Of a stretch of 64,000 nucleotides of DNA, positions 2,601 to 37,984 are shown one piece after another. The DNA is from Williamsia sp. (GTDB lineage Bacteria > Bacteroidota > Bacteroidia > Chitinophagales > Chitinophagaceae). Under the pieces are notes generated by a model. It had not been told where the DNA came from. It was given only the letters and a program-made list of their open reading frames with translations, and made no database searches. Both the position numbers and the translations under genes were made by a program. Position 1 is the first letter of the stretch; the number at the start of each line of letters is the position of its first letter. Location: the NCBI GenBank assembly GCA_015069695.1, contig JADCRZ010000031.1:1-64000 (forward strand). The letters run 5' to 3'.

Positions 2601-5600
2601 ATGAGAAAATACAGACTCTTTTTATGTATCTGCACCCTGCTCTTTGCCGGGCCCCTTGCTGCACAGATACGTGTAAGCGGTGCGGTCACGGGCCCAAACG
2701 GGGAAGGTCTTCCTGGTATCACTGTAGCGATCGCCAACTCCGGCGTGGGAGCAGCTACGGATGCCAATGGGAAATACAGCTTCACGACCAATTTACCGGC
2801 CGGCAACTATACCCTTCAGTTCAGCGGTGTAGGCTTTAAATCCGGTGAAGCTTCGCTGCGCATTGGCAGCGGGCAGTCGTATGTAGTGAACAGCCAGCTC
2901 ACAACCGATGCGCTGGGGTTGGATGAAGTGGTGGTTACAGGTACATCACAAGGAACAACCAGAAGACAATTGGGAAGTTATATCAGTACCGTAAAAGCTG
3001 ACGAGCTCACCAAAGGCGCCACCGGCAACGTACTGGCTGCCCTGCAGGGAAAAACAGCAGGCGCACAGATCATCCAGAACAGTGGTGATCCAGGCGGAGG
3101 CATATCTGTGCGGTTAAGAGGCATCAGCTCTGTAGGAAGCTCATCAGAACCACTGTATATTGTAGATGGCGTGATCGTAAACAATGCCACGTCACGTGTT
3201 ACCAATACCTCCGGCAATTATGACGGTACCAACTTTATCGGCGCCATTGGCCAGAACAGGTTGGCCGACATCAACCCTGCCGATATTGAACGCGTAGAAG
3301 TGCTGAACGGGGCCGCTGCCGCTGCGATCTACGGCTCCAGGGCCAACGCCGGCGTCGTGCAGATCTTTACAAAAAGAGGTGCCGGTGGTGCACCTAAAGT
3401 AGGCTTCTCAACCACTATCCTTGCCAACCAGATCAGAAAAAAAGTAGCCGTCAACCAGGCCCCTATCAAGTTCGGCGGATCGCCTGATGTGCAAACGCAG
3501 GACATTCTTACGCCTACACTCACCAATACCACCCCCGTCAACCGCTACGATTACAATGATTATATCTTCCGTACCGGATTGGGAACAGACAACAACGTTT
3601 CTGTAAGCGGCGGCAACGACAAAACAAAATACTATGTATCAGGTTCTTACTACTATAACCAGGGCATCGTAAAGAATACCGATTTCAGACGCTATAGCTT
3701 CCGCAGCAACATTGATCAAACAATCAGCAGCAAGCTCAGCTTTTCACTGGGACTGAACTATATCAACAGCGCCTCCAATGAAAAACCGGATGGCAATTCA
3801 TTTTTTTCTCCGCTTAATTCCATCAACATCATTGGTAACTTCCACGACATACAAACCCGGGATGCACTCGGCAACATAAAAGCCATCGGCGAAAGAGGCC
3901 GTGTAAATCCGGTTTCTATTATTGAAGACATCAAGCAGCGGGAAGAAACCAACCGCGTGCTGGCAAACACCAGCCTGAAATGGAGGCCCATTAAGCACCT
4001 GACCATCGATTACACATTGGGGATAGACAATTACGCACAACGCGGCACCACCTATATTCCTCCCTTCGCCTACAATGTAAACACGGCTTTTTACGGTGGC
4101 GGCTTGTCGCTTGATCCTACACAGAACGGATATGCCAGTGCGGCAACCTTTTCCTTCTTCCAGATGAACAATGAATTGAATGCAACTTATCAGGCCGATA
4201 TTACCAAATCACTTAGTTCAACTACCCAGGCAGGTTATTCCCTGCAGTATGAAAAAAACAGCTATACGCTTTTACAGGGAAGAGGGTTGGCACCTTTTGT
4301 GCAAACCGTAACAGGCGCCAGCACCAAGCTCGACCCGGCAGATGCAAGAAGCGAATTGTCTATTTCAGGCGTTTACCTGCAACAGAATTTCAAATACAAC
4401 AACAATCTTTTTCTGACAGGTGCTGTAAGGGTAGACGGATCATCTGTTTTTGGTACAGACCAGCGCAACCAGGTATATACAAAAGCAAGCGGCAGTTATG
4501 TACTTTCAGGAACCGATTACTGGCAAACACTCAATGTGGGCTCCTGGTGGGATCTATTTAAGATCAGGGCTGCTTATGGCGAGTCAGGCAACTTAACGGG
4601 CATTGGTGCTTACGACCGTTTCAATGCTTATTCCAGCACCTCTTTCCTGGGAAGAACTTCCTTTTATTCCTCTGCCACGCTGGCCAATACAAACGTAAAA
4701 CCTGAACGGCAGAAAGAGCTTGAGTTTGGAACCGACCTGGCTTTTTTCAAGAACAGGCTCAGCCTCCAGTTCAATTATTACATCAAGAAAGTAAGTGACC
4801 TGTTGTTCCCGCGCGTAATTGCACCCACCACTGGTTTTTCCAGCTTGCTCGACAACATCGGCTCGCTGCAAAACAGGGGTTTTGAAATTGTGCTGAACGG
4901 ATCGCCGGTGGCAAGCAAAAATGTTCATTGGGACATAACAGGCATCTTTAACCGAAACAGGAACAAGGTCCTGAATACAGGACAAGCCCTGATCCTGTAC
5001 AGCACCAATGCCGGTGCGCCCGTAGCACTGCTGCAGGGCTATCCGGTAGGCGTGTTCTATGGAACTTTCTTTGCAAAAGACAACAGCGGCAACCTGGTAA
5101 AAAGCACGGCAGGCATTCCGTTGCAGGAGCTGGGTGTTCAGAATAGTCCGCTCTCCTACACGCCCCAGCGAAACGCCAGCGGACAGCCTTCCGGCTCTAC
5201 CGTACGCAAGATCATCGGTGACCCCAATCCGGATTATACAGCGAGCCTGGTAAACGAAGTAAGTTATAGAAAGCTGAACCTGCGCGTACAGCTGGATGCT
5301 GTTCAGGGCGTAGATGTGTTTAATGCAGACTGGAGAACCCGGCAGGGGGTAGGCAATGGAAAAGTCGCTGAACAGGAAGACCTGGGGCAGGTTCCCCGTG
5401 GCTACGTTTCCGGGGTATATGGCGTAGAGGAATGGAGAATAGATGATGGTTCCTTTGTAAAGCTCCGTGAGGTATCGCTGGGGTATAACTTTGGCCAGCT
5501 CGGAAGGGCGTTCAGCGGCCTGACACTTTCCTTAAGTGGCCGCAACCTGATATCCTGGGACAATTACAAAGGGTATGATCCGGAAGTGAATGCTGCCGGA

Positions 5601-31768: not shown

Positions 31769-34700
31769 TTATTCCACATTTACCCGTACGCCTTCGCTAT
31801 GGCTGGTAAACTCCGGCGCGTACATGCATTGGGCAGTGGTAATGCCGTTGCTGAAGTTGCCGGTGTGCGTGACGAACAGGGAGTATTCAAATACATAGCT
31901 TCCTTTGGGCAGCCGGCTGAAAAAGAAATTGGTGCTGGCGTCGCGGGTACTTTCATAGTAGCCCAGGCCGCCCTGCCATTTGTAGGAACTAAGCACGTTA
32001 ACAGGTTCCATGCAGCTGGCGCGCATGTCTTTTAAGTGCACGTATTCCATGTCACGGTCTGCACGCAGCTCTATCCTGACCTTTATTTTTGTTCCGGGAT
32101 GCAGGATGGCGCCGTCGGTGACGAGTTGCAGCAGGGGACCGCGGTCGGAATTGCTTTCTATAAACAATTTTTTGTTTATCTGCAGGGCGGTGGCTGATTG
32201 GGTGATCTTGTCCAGGTTTTCAAAATACTGCCAGTATACAGCACCCCAGGATGGAGTTGTTGTTTGTTGGTTCTGATTTTGGATCTTTACAGAGATATCG
32301 CCCATGGAAGCATTGATAAATTGCGGTTCGAATGTTTTTTTGAAATAACCGGTGCCTGCTTCCCCTTTCTGGTCGGTGCTTTTGACGGACTTGTCGCCCA
32401 GCTTGATTTCTACTATCGGTTCGCTGTTCAACTGATCGAGAGAGCCGCCTTTTTGCGCAGCTGAAGGCGATTGAAGCAAGATAGCGTAACAGGCATCTGC
32501 CGTAGCTTTGGTGGTGCGCCAGTTCTGGGTTTGTTTTTGTTTGAGGAGCCAGGTGGTGAGGTCGGAGACCACTTGTTTGTTTTTGCTGATCTCGGAAAAA
32601 GCTTCTATCAGCAGGCTCTGTGTTTCGATAGGGGCCTGGTACCAGTAATAACCCGGCCGCACTTCCTTCCAGTACATACCCATTTCCTCGTTCACAGTGG
32701 CATTCTGCTGCAGCGAGCGGATAATATCCTGAGCAGTTTTTACATCGCCTGTTCTGTTTAGTGCCAGCGCGATCATGCCCTGCATGTATTTATTTTGTTG
32801 CAGCCAGTATTGCTGAGTTTGTTTGCGGAAGAAATTAACTGCCGTGAATGATTCGCCGGGAATGCCGTACTCGGGGAAGAAGCTGCGCATGTAGAGATAC
32901 TGGATCTGGGTATACTGCAGGTGTGAAAGCGAAAGATTTGCCTTGCTCTTAATAATTTGCTGGTAATCTTCCATGATCCTTTTATCAAGGTATTGAATAG
33001 CTGGTTGAACAAGCGCAGAAAGCTGCGCCGAATCTTGTCCGGGCCAGGCACCCAACCTTCTCAGATGACCAATACCGGTGATGATGTATTGAGTGATAAA
33101 GCGGTCGTCGCGGTCGCCGCGGAACCAGGGGAAGCCGCCGTTGGGCAATTGAAACTGTTGCAGTTTGCTGATGGTTGATTGCAGCTCGCGGCTCATCCGG
33201 TCCATGTCGAAGAGCAGGGCAATGTTCTTTTTTTGCTGTGCTTCTGATTTTGCCTGCAGCACCCAGGGCGTTTCTTCAAGCAGCAGGGACTTCAGTTCCT
33301 GGTTTTTCTGCAGGTTGGATAGCAGGGCAGCGGAAGAGTCCTGGCCTCCCTGTGCAGTCTTATTCCACTCATCAAATATCCTTTTCAGGCGGGGAGATGC
33401 ATTGGCAACCTTTGAGGCCAGCGCGTTGGCGTAAAGGCGGTTAAAGGTTTGTTCGGCGCATTCATAGGGATACTCCGTCAGATAGGGCAGGGCCTGAACC
33501 GCATACCAGACCGGGTTGCCGGTGTATTCAACCGTGAGGGCAAAATGCTGCAGGGTTTCGCTGTTGCCGGATTGCAGCAGTTTATCAAAGCGAAAATTCT
33601 TTGCTGCATTGCCGCGCATGGGCAGGGGCACGCTTTCTGTGACCAGCATGCTGTTCTTCAATACCGGCAGCGAAGCTTCTTCTCCGTCGCCGATGGTTTC
33701 GTTGCCGGTCTTTACGCTGGCGGTAAAGCGGTATACGAGTGCGCTGGTGTATTGATAGGGAACCTGAACGGTAAAACTGGCCGGTACACTCTTTCCTGCT
33801 TCTGCGGTGAAGTACTGGTTGGCGGTCATGTTCTGGAACCAGCCATCAACCGGCTGCAGGGTAGCTGCATTGAGCAGCTCCAGGTGGACAGTGCCGGTTA
33901 GTTCTTTGCCTGTCAGGTTCACGATCTTGGTGCTTAGCTCGATATGATCGCCTTCGCGCAGGAAGCGGGGTACATTAGGCTGCACCATGAGTTGTTTTTG
34001 TGTTACGAGGTCTTTGGTACTGTAGCCGAAAGCCGCCTCTTTTGTGTGTGCCAGGGCCTGGAACTTCCAGCGGGTAAGGGCCTCGGGCATGGTGAAGGAA
34101 AATTCAATGTTGCCGGCTGCATCGGTGTGAAGGTTTGGGAAGAAGAAGGCGGTTTCTGCGAAGTTTTTGCGGGGTTGGATAGGAGAGGTAGACTTTGTAA
34201 TTTCAGTCTCTTTTGCTTTAGGTATACGTACACCGGAAACTATCACTTCTCCTTGAACAGTAATCTCGTTTACTACACCATCTTGGTCTACCTGAACTCC
34301 AGGCAGCTTCTTTAACAAATCTTCCGCTTTTTCCTGGTTAACCGACTTAGGTACGTTGTAAAACATCTTAACATCACCGTTCGGTGCAATAGCTCCCATC
34401 CTTACGCCGCTGATCATTAAATTATTCTCAAAACCTAAGTCCAAAAGTTGGTCATAGCTCTTCAAATATGCCATAAAGTCATCTAGGAAATACCTTCCAT
34501 TCATCTGAACAGAACCAAAGTCACTTCTACCACTCCATCCACCTCGCTGAAAGTAAGTAGGCCATATGTTTGGTTCATTCCAACTATGGGGTTTAAACTG
34601 ATCAAGTGATGCATCGTACATGGAGGCGAGCATATCAACTGCTACTTTTTCATTCTTATAACCGCTGATTTTTACCTTCCATCTTTCTTCACTTCCAGGC

Positions 34701-37700
34701 AGGGTTTTGTCCCGGAACGTTTCATAAGAAATGCTCAATTCTTTGTTCGTCCAGGGAACGGAGATAACATGAGAGCTGCTGTAAAAGCGGTTATTTTTTA
34801 CAAAGAAGTTATACACGCCGAAACCACCGCGATCGTTTTCAGTAGCAATAAAGTTGAATGATTTTTTTTCTTTGTTCAAACTGATAAACCGATATTGATC
34901 CTCAGTTGTTGGCCGGTTGCCATTTACTCTTTCATCACCTCTGCTTGAATCAATTTGCTGGATCACAAACAAGTCGCTGGCAGAAGAACCGATTATTACG
35001 GTGGAAGTTTCTCCAGGTTCTATAATCTTGTTTCTCTGTGCATCCCAGGAGTAGCTGGGTACAGGAAGTGCATTGCTCTTGTCATCGTATAGTTGAATAA
35101 ACTGAACAGCTTTTACTTCTTCTCCATACCTGTCGGTTGTTACTGCCTCAATTATATAACTGCCTTGCGCAACCGGAAAATTTTTAAGTGTCATCTGTCC
35201 GTTCGCCCGCGTGGAATCATTGGCCTCCCATACTTTCTCTCCTTTACCCCAGGTATGGTAATCACTTTCATGCTTGTATTCATCAGCGGGAAAATATTTT
35301 GTAAATTCTTCCTGGTTCATCACAAACTGATCGGGCTGTTGCCAATAGCGTTCCCGGATCAGGCGGTCGGGTGACTGCAAGCGGAAGATCGAAACTCGAA
35401 CCAGTGATGGCTGAAAATCACCATTGATGTTCTGTGTGGTGATAAGTAAGCTTTTCAGGCTATCTGCGGGGACGGTTTCATCACCGGTAGATGTGGCTAC
35501 CTTAATCTGTAACGCTTTGTATGATACTAAAACAGTCTTTTCTCCGCTCCGCGTCTCCCCATTCACGTCCGTAACATCGGCAATGATTTTGTAATCAAAA
35601 ACAGGATCCAGCTGTTTGCTGATCGTAAGATCAGGAATGGCTTTGAAGCGGATGGTGAACTTGCCACCCGCATCAGTAGTCGCTATTCCGCTGGTAATTT
35701 CTAGGTTGCTGCCACGGGGAAGCCACCGGCCGTATAACCAGGGATAGATAAACCGGGGTTGCCTTACTACCCGGTACTTTACCTGTGCCCCGTCGATGTT
35801 GTTGCCTGCATAAGCTTGGGCAGAGCCAGTAATGGCAATGCTGTCATTAACCTTGTATACCTCTTTGATGGGTTCGTACTCCACAGAAAACCTGGGGCGC
35901 TTGTATTCTTCTACTGAGAAATCAGCCTGCCCATCCAGTTCTTCCCTGATATAAAATTCGCCTGTTAATCCATTCTCCGGCAACCGGAACTTGCCGGAGT
36001 AAGAACCAAACTCATTTGTGGTGAGTTCCAAAGAATCGATCTTTTCGCCATTGGCATTGTAAAGTGCAACTTGTGCCTTGTGATCAGGGTAGGCTTTGCT
36101 CCGCTTCGAAGTGAAATCTTTTGTAATAATGATTCCCTTAAAGTACACGGTTTGTCCGGGCCGGTAGATGGAGCGGTCTGTAAAGAAAAAAATGCTAGCC
36201 TGGTCTTTTTCATATGCAGCAGCGCTGACTTGCTTTGCCACCTGTTCATCATTATAAATTATATATTCACTGCTTTCACCAAACAAGTGATCCGCGTTGT
36301 AGGTAACTTCCAGCTGTGTACTTTCCTGTTGTTTTTTTTGTCCGGTAAGCTGCACAAACCCGTTTTCATTGCTAAGCTTTTTCTCTCCCTTTGTAAGTGT
36401 ATAACGGCGTGTGCTGTAATCATATTTCCTGTACCAAACCTGCACAGTTGCCTTCGCCAATGGTTTGCCTGTTTCCCGGTGAAGCAAAAAATAATCATTG
36501 CCCCTGTTCACATAGCTGATATTGGATACATACACTTGTCCGGCTGCCAGTGGGTTTTTATCCAGGAAAAAATTTTCATTCAGACTTCCGATGAGCACAT
36601 AGCTACCAACCGGAAGCGCATCTACTTTTATTTCTGCACTGTGCTTCTGGTAATCATTGGTTGCAGGCAGTACCTGGCTCCAACTGCGGATAGGTTTTAC
36701 AGCAATCAATTGCTTCCAGTATGCATCGTCATTGTTATCCCGGCTTTTCAATGCATCTGTTAGCGGAATGATCCTGAAGTAGAGCTGTGTAAAATTCCGG
36801 TATTGCACCAGTGCTCTGAATGGCTGTTCCGGGATATTCACTGTTTCTGTTGTTATGCTCAGATCCCTGTGCTGTATCTGATTCAGGAGATTAAAGCAGT
36901 TTACTTTGCCTTCACTTTCTGCGCCTTGCTTTAGTATCCTTTCACATATCTTCACTGCTTCCAGGTATTCATAACGGCCTGTAGTATCCTTAAACGGCTC
37001 ATATCTTCCTGCTCTCTCAGCATGCTCCTGCGCGATCAAATACCAAGCCTGTGCAGCAGCCGGCGCATCTCCCCACATATCAGCCACACGCTTTAATGCA
37101 GCCGCATACAGGTCATCTTTGTTGGGCATGACCGCATACTGGTGCACAAATTCAATGCGGAGCAGATCCGCATCAATCAGGGCATCTGGCTTGGTATCGC
37201 CGGCATGAAACTGAAGCAACTGCTGGAAGATCAGCAGGGCTTTGCGGTGAAGAGAGAGTGAATCAGCAGTAGTAATTTTCAGCTTCGCAAAAGTAGCGGC
37301 ATCAGAAAATAAACCTTCTTCCTTCAGCTCAAATGCATACGCCGGTTTGTTGATGTCACGCTCATCGCTCCGGAAATAATCAAGCGCTTTGTGCGCCAGC
37401 AAATCATACAGCGTAGGACGGAGCGCACGCATATTGCCCTTTATGATGATAGGGTCGTAAGATTGCAGTGCAGTCTGTTGCAGTAATTTTTCTTTTTCGA
37501 TTGAAGCCAGGTAAAGTGCACCAATCTTTGCATGCAAATCATTGATGCTCCAGGTGGCAATATCACCCTGCTGAAAATTCTGTGTCTGTGTTCTGTTATA
37601 TAATTGATAACGGTGCTGTTGAAAGTAGTTGAGATACCTTTCAGCGAGCAAGCTGGTCAGGATAGATTTTACCGGCTCCGCAGCTGTCAGGATTTCTTTA

Positions 37701-37984
37701 TCAAGCAATTGGATGCTGCCTTTTTGTGCGTCTTCATCTACCTGTTCACTCAACTGCATTTTATATACGAGCGCCTTGATCAGTTGCGCCTGCTGCCCTT
37801 CCTTTTTGGCCAGCGTATAAATCTTTTCCACCTCAGCAAGCGCTGATTTCGGCAAGCCTTTTTTGCTGATCAGCTCGTCTGCTTTTTTCCAGAGCGTATC
37901 ATATTTACTGTTGTTCTGTGCCTGCATGGTAAGGGTTACAAGAGATAAAAGGATCAGAAAGAAAATTTGTTTGTTCAACCACAT
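31769..37984 (-). CDS. Bacterial alpha-2-macroglobulin with thioester and plug-like insert
   Basis: A 2071-residue secreted protease trap. A signal peptide (1-22, ending LTMQAQ) is followed by a helical N-terminal region of about 350 residues, then macroglobulin beta domains (MG2-like YRPGQTVYFKGIIITKD around 610). The intact thioester motif CAEQ is at Cys1509 (codon 33458-33460) in the alpha-helical thioester domain, and a C-terminal receptor-like domain completes it. Around residues 1190-1260 a segment reads DLLKKLPGVQVDQDGVVN and VQGEVIVSGVRI, resembling the start of a TonB-receptor plug; it lies just before FPNLHTDAAGNIEFSFTMPEALTRWKF, where a bait region is expected. It is long for the family. 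DNA from about 34200 to 36900 looks poorer in G+C than the rest of the gene. Confidence 0.92.
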   Translation of the reverse strand: MWLNKQIFFLILLSLVTLTMQAQNNSKYDTLWKKADELISKKGLPKSALAEVEKIYTLAKKEGQQAQLIKALVYKMQLSEQVDEDAQKGSIQLLDKEILTAAEPVKSILTSLLAERYLNYFQQHRYQLYNRTQTQNFQQGDIATWSINDLHAKIGALYLASIEKEKLLQQTALQSYDPIIIKGNMRALRPTLYDLLAHKALDYFRSDERDINKPAYAFELKEEGLFSDAATFAKLKITTADSLSLHRKALLIFQQLLQFHAGDTKPDALIDADLLRIEFVHQYAVMPNKDDLYAAALKRVADMWGDAPAAAQAWYLIAQEHAERAGRYEPFKDTTGRYEYLEAVKICERILKQGAESEGKVNCFNLLNQIQHRDLSITTETVNIPEQPFRALVQYRNFTQLYFRIIPLTDALKSRDNNDDAYWKQLIAVKPIRSWSQVLPATNDYQKHSAEIKVDALPVGSYVLIGSLNENFFLDKNPLAAGQVYVSNISYVNRGNDYFLLHRETGKPLAKATVQVWYRKYDYSTRRYTLTKGEKKLSNENGFVQLTGQKKQQESTQLEVTYNADHLFGESSEYIIYNDEQVAKQVSAAAYEKDQASIFFFTDRSIYRPGQTVYFKGIIITKDFTSKRSKAYPDHKAQVALYNANGEKIDSLELTTNEFGSYSGKFRLPENGLTGEFYIREELDGQADFSVEEYKRPRFSVEYEPIKEVYKVNDSIAITGSAQAYAGNNIDGAQVKYRVVRQPRFIYPWLYGRWLPRGSNLEITSGIATTDAGGKFTIRFKAIPDLTISKQLDPVFDYKIIADVTDVNGETRSGEKTVLVSYKALQIKVATSTGDETVPADSLKSLLITTQNINGDFQPSLVRVSIFRLQSPDRLIRERYWQQPDQFVMNQEEFTKYFPADEYKHESDYHTWGKGEKVWEANDSTRANGQMTLKNFPVAQGSYIIEAVTTDRYGEEVKAVQFIQLYDDKSNALPVPSYSWDAQRNKIIEPGETSTVIIGSSASDLFVIQQIDSSRGDERVNGNRPTTEDQYRFISLNKEKKSFNFIATENDRGGFGVYNFFVKNNRFYSSSHVISVPWTNKELSISYETFRDKTLPGSEERWKVKISGYKNEKVAVDMLASMYDASLDQFKPHSWNEPNIWPTYFQRGGWSGRSDFGSVQMNGRYFLDDFMAYLKSYDQLLDLGFENNLMISGVRMGAIAPNGDVKMFYNVPKSVNQEKAEDLLKKLPGVQVDQDGVVNEITVQGEVIVSGVRIPKAKETEITKSTSPIQPRKNFAETAFFFPNLHTDAAGNIEFSFTMPEALTRWKFQALAHTKEAAFGYSTKDLVTQKQLMVQPNVPRFLREGDHIELSTKIVNLTGKELTGTVHLELLNAATLQPVDGWFQNMTANQYFTAEAGKSVPASFTVQVPYQYTSALVYRFTASVKTGNETIGDGEEASLPVLKNSMLVTESVPLPMRGNAAKNFRFDKLLQSGNSETLQHFALTVEYTGNPVWYAVQALPYLTEYPYECAEQTFNRLYANALASKVANASPRLKRIFDEWNKTAQGGQDSSAALLSNLQKNQELKSLLLEETPWVLQAKSEAQQKKNIALLFDMDRMSRELQSTISKLQQFQLPNGGFPWFRGDRDDRFITQYIITGIGHLRRLGAWPGQDSAQLSALVQPAIQYLDKRIMEDYQQIIKSKANLSLSHLQYTQIQYLYMRSFFPEYGIPGESFTAVNFFRKQTQQYWLQQNKYMQGMIALALNRTGDVKTAQDIIRSLQQNATVNEEMGMYWKEVRPGYYWYQAPIETQSLLIEAFSEISKNKQVVSDLTTWLLKQKQTQNWRTTKATADACYAILLQSPSAAQKGGSLDQLNSEPIVEIKLGDKSVKSTDQKGEAGTGYFKKTFEPQFINASMGDISVKIQNQNQQTTTPSWGAVYWQYFENLDKITQSATALQINKKLFIESNSDRGPLLQLVTDGAILHPGTKIKVRIELRADRDMEYVHLKDMRASCMEPVNVLSSYKWQGGLGYYESTRDASTNFFFSRLPKGSYVFEYSLFVTHTGNFSNGITTAQCMYAPEFTSHSEGVRVNVE

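Follow-up and report, generated by a model that had tools for sequence, protein, structure and literature searches.

Envelope-protein look-alikes in the bait of a Chitinophagaceae thioester macroglobulin and in the baits of its relatives

Why would the bait of a bacterial macroglobulin, whose cleavage would spring a protease trap, look like the start of an outer-membrane receptor plug? The question is raised by a thioester macroglobulin gene in a 64,000-nucleotide stretch (hereafter the window) of contig JADCRZ010000031.1, from the assembly GCA_015069695.1 of Williamsia sp., which GTDB places in the Chitinophagaceae. The gene lies on the minus strand at 31769-37984 and is a single open frame of 2071 amino acids. 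We find that its bait contains a segment resembling the plug start of a TonB-dependent receptor, and that the baits of related macroglobulins hold pieces resembling other proteins of the cell envelope. It is quite possible, although we hold the idea tentatively, that such a bait is patched together from segments that the cell itself exposes to the periplasm, and that a protease attacking the envelope would thereby set off the trap.

A receptor-like segment in the bait

Two features of the protein are central to the question.

34184..34579, minus strand: bait region, residues 1136-1267, with limits taken from flank profiles; predicted local distance difference test score (pLDDT) below 50 in about two thirds
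34217..34381, minus strand: plug-like segment, residues 1202-1256, with the core KAEDLLKKLPGVQVDQDG at residues 1219-1236; receptor likeness, modelled as helix-strand-strand at pLDDT of about 60

A sequence-only reading of this DNA had noticed the beginning of a TonB-receptor plug near residues 1190-1260, marked by DLLKKLPGVQVDQDGVVN and VQGEVIVSGVRI, and had placed it at the bait position. Both stretches are present in the protein, where AEDLLKKLPG begins at residue 1220 and SGVRIPK runs up to residue 1256, and the placement also held, as residues ~1202-1256 match the plug start of OMP_b-brl_3-type TonB receptors and lie within the bait, with the A2M domain following. A search of the own genome with residues 1180-1273 (E up to 10) returned 13 non-self matches, the best at E 5.5e-5, in frames of 815-1016 amino acids; by eye, each of the 13 looks like a TonB receptor and shows the plug pattern. 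The best match, L044, carries Pfam OMP_b-brl_3 and CarboxypepD_reg (it alone of the 13 was run through Pfam).

Because a donor profile built from the window's own matches (30.8 bits) is partly circular, an independent profile was made. It draws on 30 OMP_b-brl_3 receptors from two other genomes, selected for their barrel regardless of the motif, and uses their N-terminal parts. This profile scores the window bait at 24.3 bits over residues 1202-1248, a value that none of 7,530 control stretches reaches, whether shuffled (5,020) or non-bait (2,510); the best control scores 20.3. The search against plug profiles that the sequence-only reading had proposed was thus divided in its outcome, with no match to Pfam Plug and a clear one to the barrel-picked receptor profile. 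The likeness covers the first ~45 residues of the plug, with no whole plug and no barrel. At the level of sequence, these comparisons confirm that the plug likeness is real and beyond chance. A tblastn search against plasmids gave nine records only, all at E 0.07 or worse, three of them annotated as TonB receptors.

The core and L044 are identical at 15 of 18 residues but use the same codon at only 2 of the 15, and 1-4 codons agree with each of the other 12 own-genome receptors. The few shared codons despite this identity therefore speak against a recent copy from the receptors examined; the core residues appear to have been retained or regained while synonymous sites diverged.

A structure model of residues 986-1392, built with 35 alignment rows, has a mean pLDDT of 70.6, and its macroglobulin (MG) part is well predicted. 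In Foldseek the model finds macroglobulins and complement C3/C5, including 5a42, 4u48 and 4rtd. Model residues 165-231 and 264-291, most of the bait, fall below a pLDDT of 50, which we treat as disorder. The plug-like part is predicted as a helix (model residues 232-240) and two strands (245-247 and 253-258) at pLDDT of about 60, without confident placement in an MG domain. The model thus does not make the segment an ordinary MG strand pair, the outcome that the sequence-only reading had named as fatal to it, although confidence in this part is low. A model of the bait of L126, a relative described below, gave pLDDT below 50 for its plug part and is uninformative on fold.

Envelope-protein pieces in the baits of relatives

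The sequence-only reading had also proposed a survey of macroglobulin baits, which revealed a wider pattern than plugs alone. From 275 frames, of which 3 were dropped at bait excision, we obtained 272 baits, or 251 distinct baits after identical ones were merged; the window's family is over-represented in the set, with 148 of the 250 rows of the tree. At least one recognisable envelope-protein piece is held by 75 of the 251 distinct baits (six profiles, thresholds of 10 or 12 bits). These pieces come from the SusC N-terminal domain, Ton box or plug (46 baits), the TonB linker (18), GldN, LptD and other TonB receptors; LptD, a GldN profile of wider scope and a third class of receptor complete the profile set.

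With a threshold of 12 bits, the SusC profile picks out 46 of 251 baits, as against none of 5,020 shuffled stretches and 2 of 2,510 non-bait ones. The corresponding bait counts are 17 for TonB, 3 for GldN and 4 for the OMP-type plug profile (which is partly circular), each against no shuffled and no non-bait stretch in the same control sets. TonB matches of at least 10 bits number 19, in 18 baits, and every one falls within columns 82-155 of 277, the linker that follows the N-terminal part and precedes the C-terminal domain; that domain itself has none. Standard profiles agree, since among the first 34 baits three match Pfam Plug (best 1.6e-9), three TIGR04056 (best 6e-24) and three TIGR04057 (best 1.4e-12).

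Some of these pieces are extensive. The C-terminal half of the SusC plug is present in 13 baits, across the window's family, Flavobacteriales and others, and the baits of L126 and L154 carry N-terminal domain, Ton box and plug in one continuous run. A paralogue in the window's own genome, at C186 (L036, L138), also has a plug in its bait: the L138 bait holds the C-terminal half of the SusC plug together with a Ton-box-like stretch, phmmer leads from it to SusC and RagA structures (1.8e-9), and its SusC signature scores 41.9 bits, under the NCBI cut-off of 46.2.

Looser patterns point to further pieces. Ton-box-like segments are found by a loose pattern in 38 of 272 baits and, by eye, a GRxxGV-type piece precedes the Ton box in several, the reverse of the receptor order. 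DGVxD-type stretches, again by loose pattern, occur in 15 of 272 baits (for example L204, L218, L260 and L272); we take them to resemble thrombospondin type 3 repeats of OmpA-type linkers. A 1948-amino-acid frame of a second macroglobulin type (G020:C22:242922-243599), recognised by its match to the A2M part, also matches a Ton-box-like bait stretch at E 0.06, and other macroglobulin types may hold such pieces too. Two frames of 590 and 646 amino acids, short for receptors, match TIGR04057 below its cut-off (G000:C216:3070-3156 and G000:C90:11779-11865); they may be orphan plugs or cut genes.

Donors of the pieces

Several pieces could be traced to named proteins, and those from TonB, GldN and LptD came as a surprise. 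FTPPKIVKDEEV recurs in baits (by eye), and a 30-residue piece containing it matched frames of 281-288 amino acids in five of five genomes; one of these, L328, is TonB (TonB_C 7e-20), and the others are alike on reading. In the TonB case the own TonB is the closest, at 83%. VPDLKADPDGSKGIMRDE was traced to GldN. In the L248 bait a piece of GldN is fused to one of LptD, and the L297 bait has 15 of 18 residues of an LptD piece (the LptD donor matches LptD_2).

Donors were also sought without preset modules. In a first search, 16 random baits, one per genus, were joined into one query and compared with their own 16 genomes (E up to 1). This gave at least 112 non-self rows; among the matches listed, 111 touch L207, L223, L230 and L288, one lies elsewhere at E 0.35, and none falls in the 906 shuffled residues. 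The donors for L207, L223 and L230 are mostly frames of ~1000-1250 amino acids, some shorter, and were judged by size except for L410, which matches Pfam Plug; that for L288 is a 353-amino-acid frame aligning as GldN. For L207 no such match was found in its own genome, and the donor lies only in other genomes of the set. A second search used 18 baits without a module at 5 bits, a set thereby selected against known modules, versus their own genomes (E up to 5). Its 30 non-self rows comprise 19 for L200 (the third receptor class), 3 for L248, 1 each for L309 and L297, 3 in macroglobulin bait starts and 3 unexplained, one of these in a shuffled part at E 0.003. In all, a donor was found for 8 of the 34 searched baits, in the own genome for seven and elsewhere for L207. 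These donors are SusC/TonB receptors, GldN or LptD, as indicated by Pfam and NCBIfam on sample donors.

Turnover and constraint of the bait

Baits can be replaced outright between close relatives. We compared 21 pairs whose fourfold sites are at least 60% identical. In six of them (L006 is in two of the six) the identity of the variable part is 0.25 or less, which is the 95% level for random pairs. In the pair L028/L270, fourfold sites are 0.81 and the A2M domain 0.95 identical with a bait at 0.23, and DNA likeness in the variable part is 23, versus 24 in 50 shuffles. The variable-part DNA of L006/L237 is likewise not above shuffled (22 versus 28), and that of L223/L224 (24 versus 23) and L197/L209 (29 versus 25) is nearly at shuffle level; in these four pairs the A2M domain is still 94-95% identical. 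The bait has been retained in L214/L216, L023/L312, L057/L217 and L282/L283. Taken together, the sequence comparisons establish mosaic baits in the relatives and wholesale replacement between some close ones.

Between replacements, the sequence appears constrained. The ratio of nonsynonymous to synonymous change (dN/dS) of the modules is ~0.13-0.5 in seven of eight hand-picked module-bearing sister pairs (L214/L216 has dN 0.03 and dS 0.04), and below 0.1 in the A2M flanks. In a check of point changes over 12 hand-picked pairs, in which two cells lack a dS value, dN is lower than dS except in the non-module bait of L214/L216 (dN 0.05, dS 0, 35 codons). The main mode of bait change thus looks like replacement rather than rapid point change. 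On a 250-row FastTree tree, a minimum of 50 changes is needed for the label "any module", versus 56-70 in 200 shuffles.

Layout of the macroglobulin gene

The remaining features of the gene are as follows.

31769..37984, minus strand: macroglobulin gene, single frame of 2071 amino acids with Pfam MG2, A2M and bMG10
37919..37984, minus strand: N-terminal signal sequence, residues ~1-22, by eye; no lipobox cysteine seen
35942..36193, minus strand: MG2 domain, residues 598-681 (Pfam PF01835, 1.7e-19)
33881..34153, minus strand: A2M domain, residues 1278-1368 (Pfam PF00207, 3.5e-21)
33449..33460, minus strand: thioester motif CAEQ, residues 1509-1512
31811..32185, minus strand: bMG10 domain, residues 1934-2058 (Pfam PF17973, 4.6e-33)

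The thioester motif reported at Cys1509 by the sequence-only reading is therefore in place, and CxEQ is present in 33 of 35 aligned rows, the window protein among them. Two relatives of the same type, L033 and L034, lack CxEQ, L034 having CADQ, and macroglobulins of this type may include thioester-less forms. ETAFF of the A2M domain begins at residue 1277. NCBIfam returned no match at all for the whole protein. The protein is matched in 49 of 59 relatives (E up to 0.001, part of the matches being weak), and a profile of its A2M part has hits (E up to 1e-75) in 172 out of 294 genomes from its family. The first third of the bait (window residues ~1136-1180; xxPxIWPxY...W...F...YDxL) is often conserved while the remainder varies, and may serve to hold the bait in position. 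Among neighbouring frames of at least 120 amino acids at 28-42 kb, read by eye and without a profile search, no pbpC was recognised. At 3282-3374 of the window, on the plus strand, a SusC signature above cut-off lies in a frame of 1037 amino acids.

What the bait may be for

We infer a decoy function for the bait. The macroglobulin would be a thioester protease trap in the periplasm, and its bait a rapidly exchanged patchwork resembling the cell's own envelope machines, with the plug start of an OMP_b-brl_3-type receptor as the patch in the window, and the SusC Ton box and plug, TonB linker, GldN and LptD as patches in relatives. An invading protease that cuts at exposed linkers of these machines in the periplasm would cleave the look-alike as well; cleavage would change the shape of the macroglobulin, and the CAEQ thioester would then bond the protease. 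Shared origin would protect the bait from resident proteases, which would already spare such segments. The proteases trapped would be those that attack the donor proteins, provided that the protein is periplasmic and the trap works. By the known topology of the donors, all pieces face the periplasm, presumably including those of GldN and LptD, and many are linkers or domain edges (TonB linker, Ton box, plug start). A study of SusC fits this picture (PMC7782687): within the isolated N-terminal domain the Ton box of Bt1763 (DEVVVTG) has no fixed structure, and earlier crystals had shown proteolysis of the SusC plug.

Several observations weigh against the idea of a self look-alike. With the six profiles, 176 of 251 baits have no recognisable donor. 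Pfam Plug (PF07715) matches neither the window protein nor its bait, although this carries little weight because the receptor L044 also lacks a Plug match (none at E 0.001 in the 673 amino acids examined), and phmmer with the window bait against PDB sequences finds no receptor. A recent DNA copy of the window segment was sought in the 13 own-genome receptors and none was found, and one GldN piece is closer to the GldN of a sister genome (75%) than to its own (68%). The Ton box of the apo transporter is described as tucked into the barrel and unexposed (PMC7782687), and whole plugs, which are folded in their donors, suit a disordered bait less well. Finally, close pairs give no clear sign that modules are better conserved than the remaining bait: the module is ahead in 11 of 15 pairs with a module on both sides and in 13 of 23 with one on a single side. 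In more distant pairs with a module on both sides it is ahead more often (28 of 37 and 277 of 345), with the limit that such pairs are interdependent and that modules resemble one another by definition.

The main rival is that the bait is tolerated filler: any in-frame sequence would be captured, and those that survive would be pieces already able to live unfolded and uncut in the periplasm, whatever their donor. Although we regard this as rather doubtful, wholesale replacement between some close relatives and the unstructured linkers among the commonest pieces (Ton box, TonB linker) are both consistent with it, as is the reported engineering of the human A2M bait into selective inhibitors (PMC8267569), from which it follows that baits bear change. 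The low dN/dS of the modules argues the other way, as does the window core, whose residues seem to have been preserved, or restored, as synonymous sites decayed; moreover, TonB, GldN and LptD look too rare per genome for random capture, by a rough estimate. The sequence-only reading had itself offered two uses for a plug-derived peptide, as protease bait or as a docking piece, and the former remains a tenable reading. Docking would have the plug or Ton box segment bind TonB or another envelope partner and place the trap at outer-membrane machines. The Ton-box-like segments fit this idea, the Ton box is what TonB binds (PMC7782687), and a trap without a lipobox may need an anchor. The idea is weakened because the plug piece is one of several fragment kinds, of which those from the TonB linker, GldN and LptD are not expected to bind TonB, and because some close relatives have no fragment or a swapped one. 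In addition, 205 of 251 baits, including that of the window, have no SusC-profile match of 12 bits, and module presence changes often on the tree. Docking is improbable here, and docking to TonB as a general role is unlikely.

Even less probable, and already disfavoured, is an inherited remnant of a single ancestral plug insertion that has decayed in most lineages. The occurrence of the SusC plug C-terminal half in the window's family, Flavobacteriales and others, and label changes somewhat below shuffles, would suit a remnant, but the pieces derive from differing receptor classes (SusC, OMP_b-brl_3 and the third) and from the unrelated donors TonB, GldN and LptD, and the GRxxGV-type piece ahead of the Ton box contradicts receptor order. 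Chance likeness of a low-complexity bait would account for the failed Pfam Plug and PDB searches, the shuffled stretch at E 0.003 and the two non-bait SusC matches; it is very hard to reconcile with a score that no control reaches and with 13 own-genome matches that all read as TonB receptors, and the controls already disfavour it strongly.

It is tempting to extend the self look-alike idea further, although the extension is a speculation that we consider doubtful: Bacteroidota would possess a periplasmic, immune-like trap in which whole bait cassettes are made from their own envelope pieces, triggered by self-mimicry and caught in an arms race with the proteases of predatory or rival organisms. 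If baits do imitate envelope proteins, the bait sequence would itself indicate what attackers cut and hence the targets of bacterial macroglobulin defence, and the swapped baits between sister species make this question about attackers testable. Protein segments would here, moreover, have been rebuilt repeatedly from pieces of the cell's own genes.

Comparison with known systems

The window protein shares MG2, A2M and bMG10 domains and a CxEQ thioester with bacterial type I alpha-2-macroglobulins such as E. coli ECAM and Salmonella SaA2M, and its bait, predicted at low confidence and probably disordered, sits immediately before the A2M domain as theirs does. It differs in its length of 2071 amino acids and in its receptor-plug-like bait sequence. 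ECAM is anchored to the inner membrane as a lipoprotein, whereas the window protein has, by eye, no cysteine at the end of its signal, which makes it less ECAM-like and leaves its membership of the superfamily unaffected. The window bait resembles the first ~45 residues of an OMP_b-brl_3-class receptor plug (L044), and the bait of the paralogue L138 the C-terminal half of a SusC/RagA-class plug; unlike TonB-dependent receptors, the window protein has neither barrel nor complete plug domain, and its segment lies inside a macroglobulin. In the literature searched (PMC, open licences; the SusC query was little informative), receptor or TonB pieces in macroglobulin baits were not found described.

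Eukaryotic macroglobulins and thioester proteins also have a quickly changing bait between conserved domains. Unlike those variable baits, the baits described here hold recognisable pieces of named envelope proteins, and some have been replaced outright.

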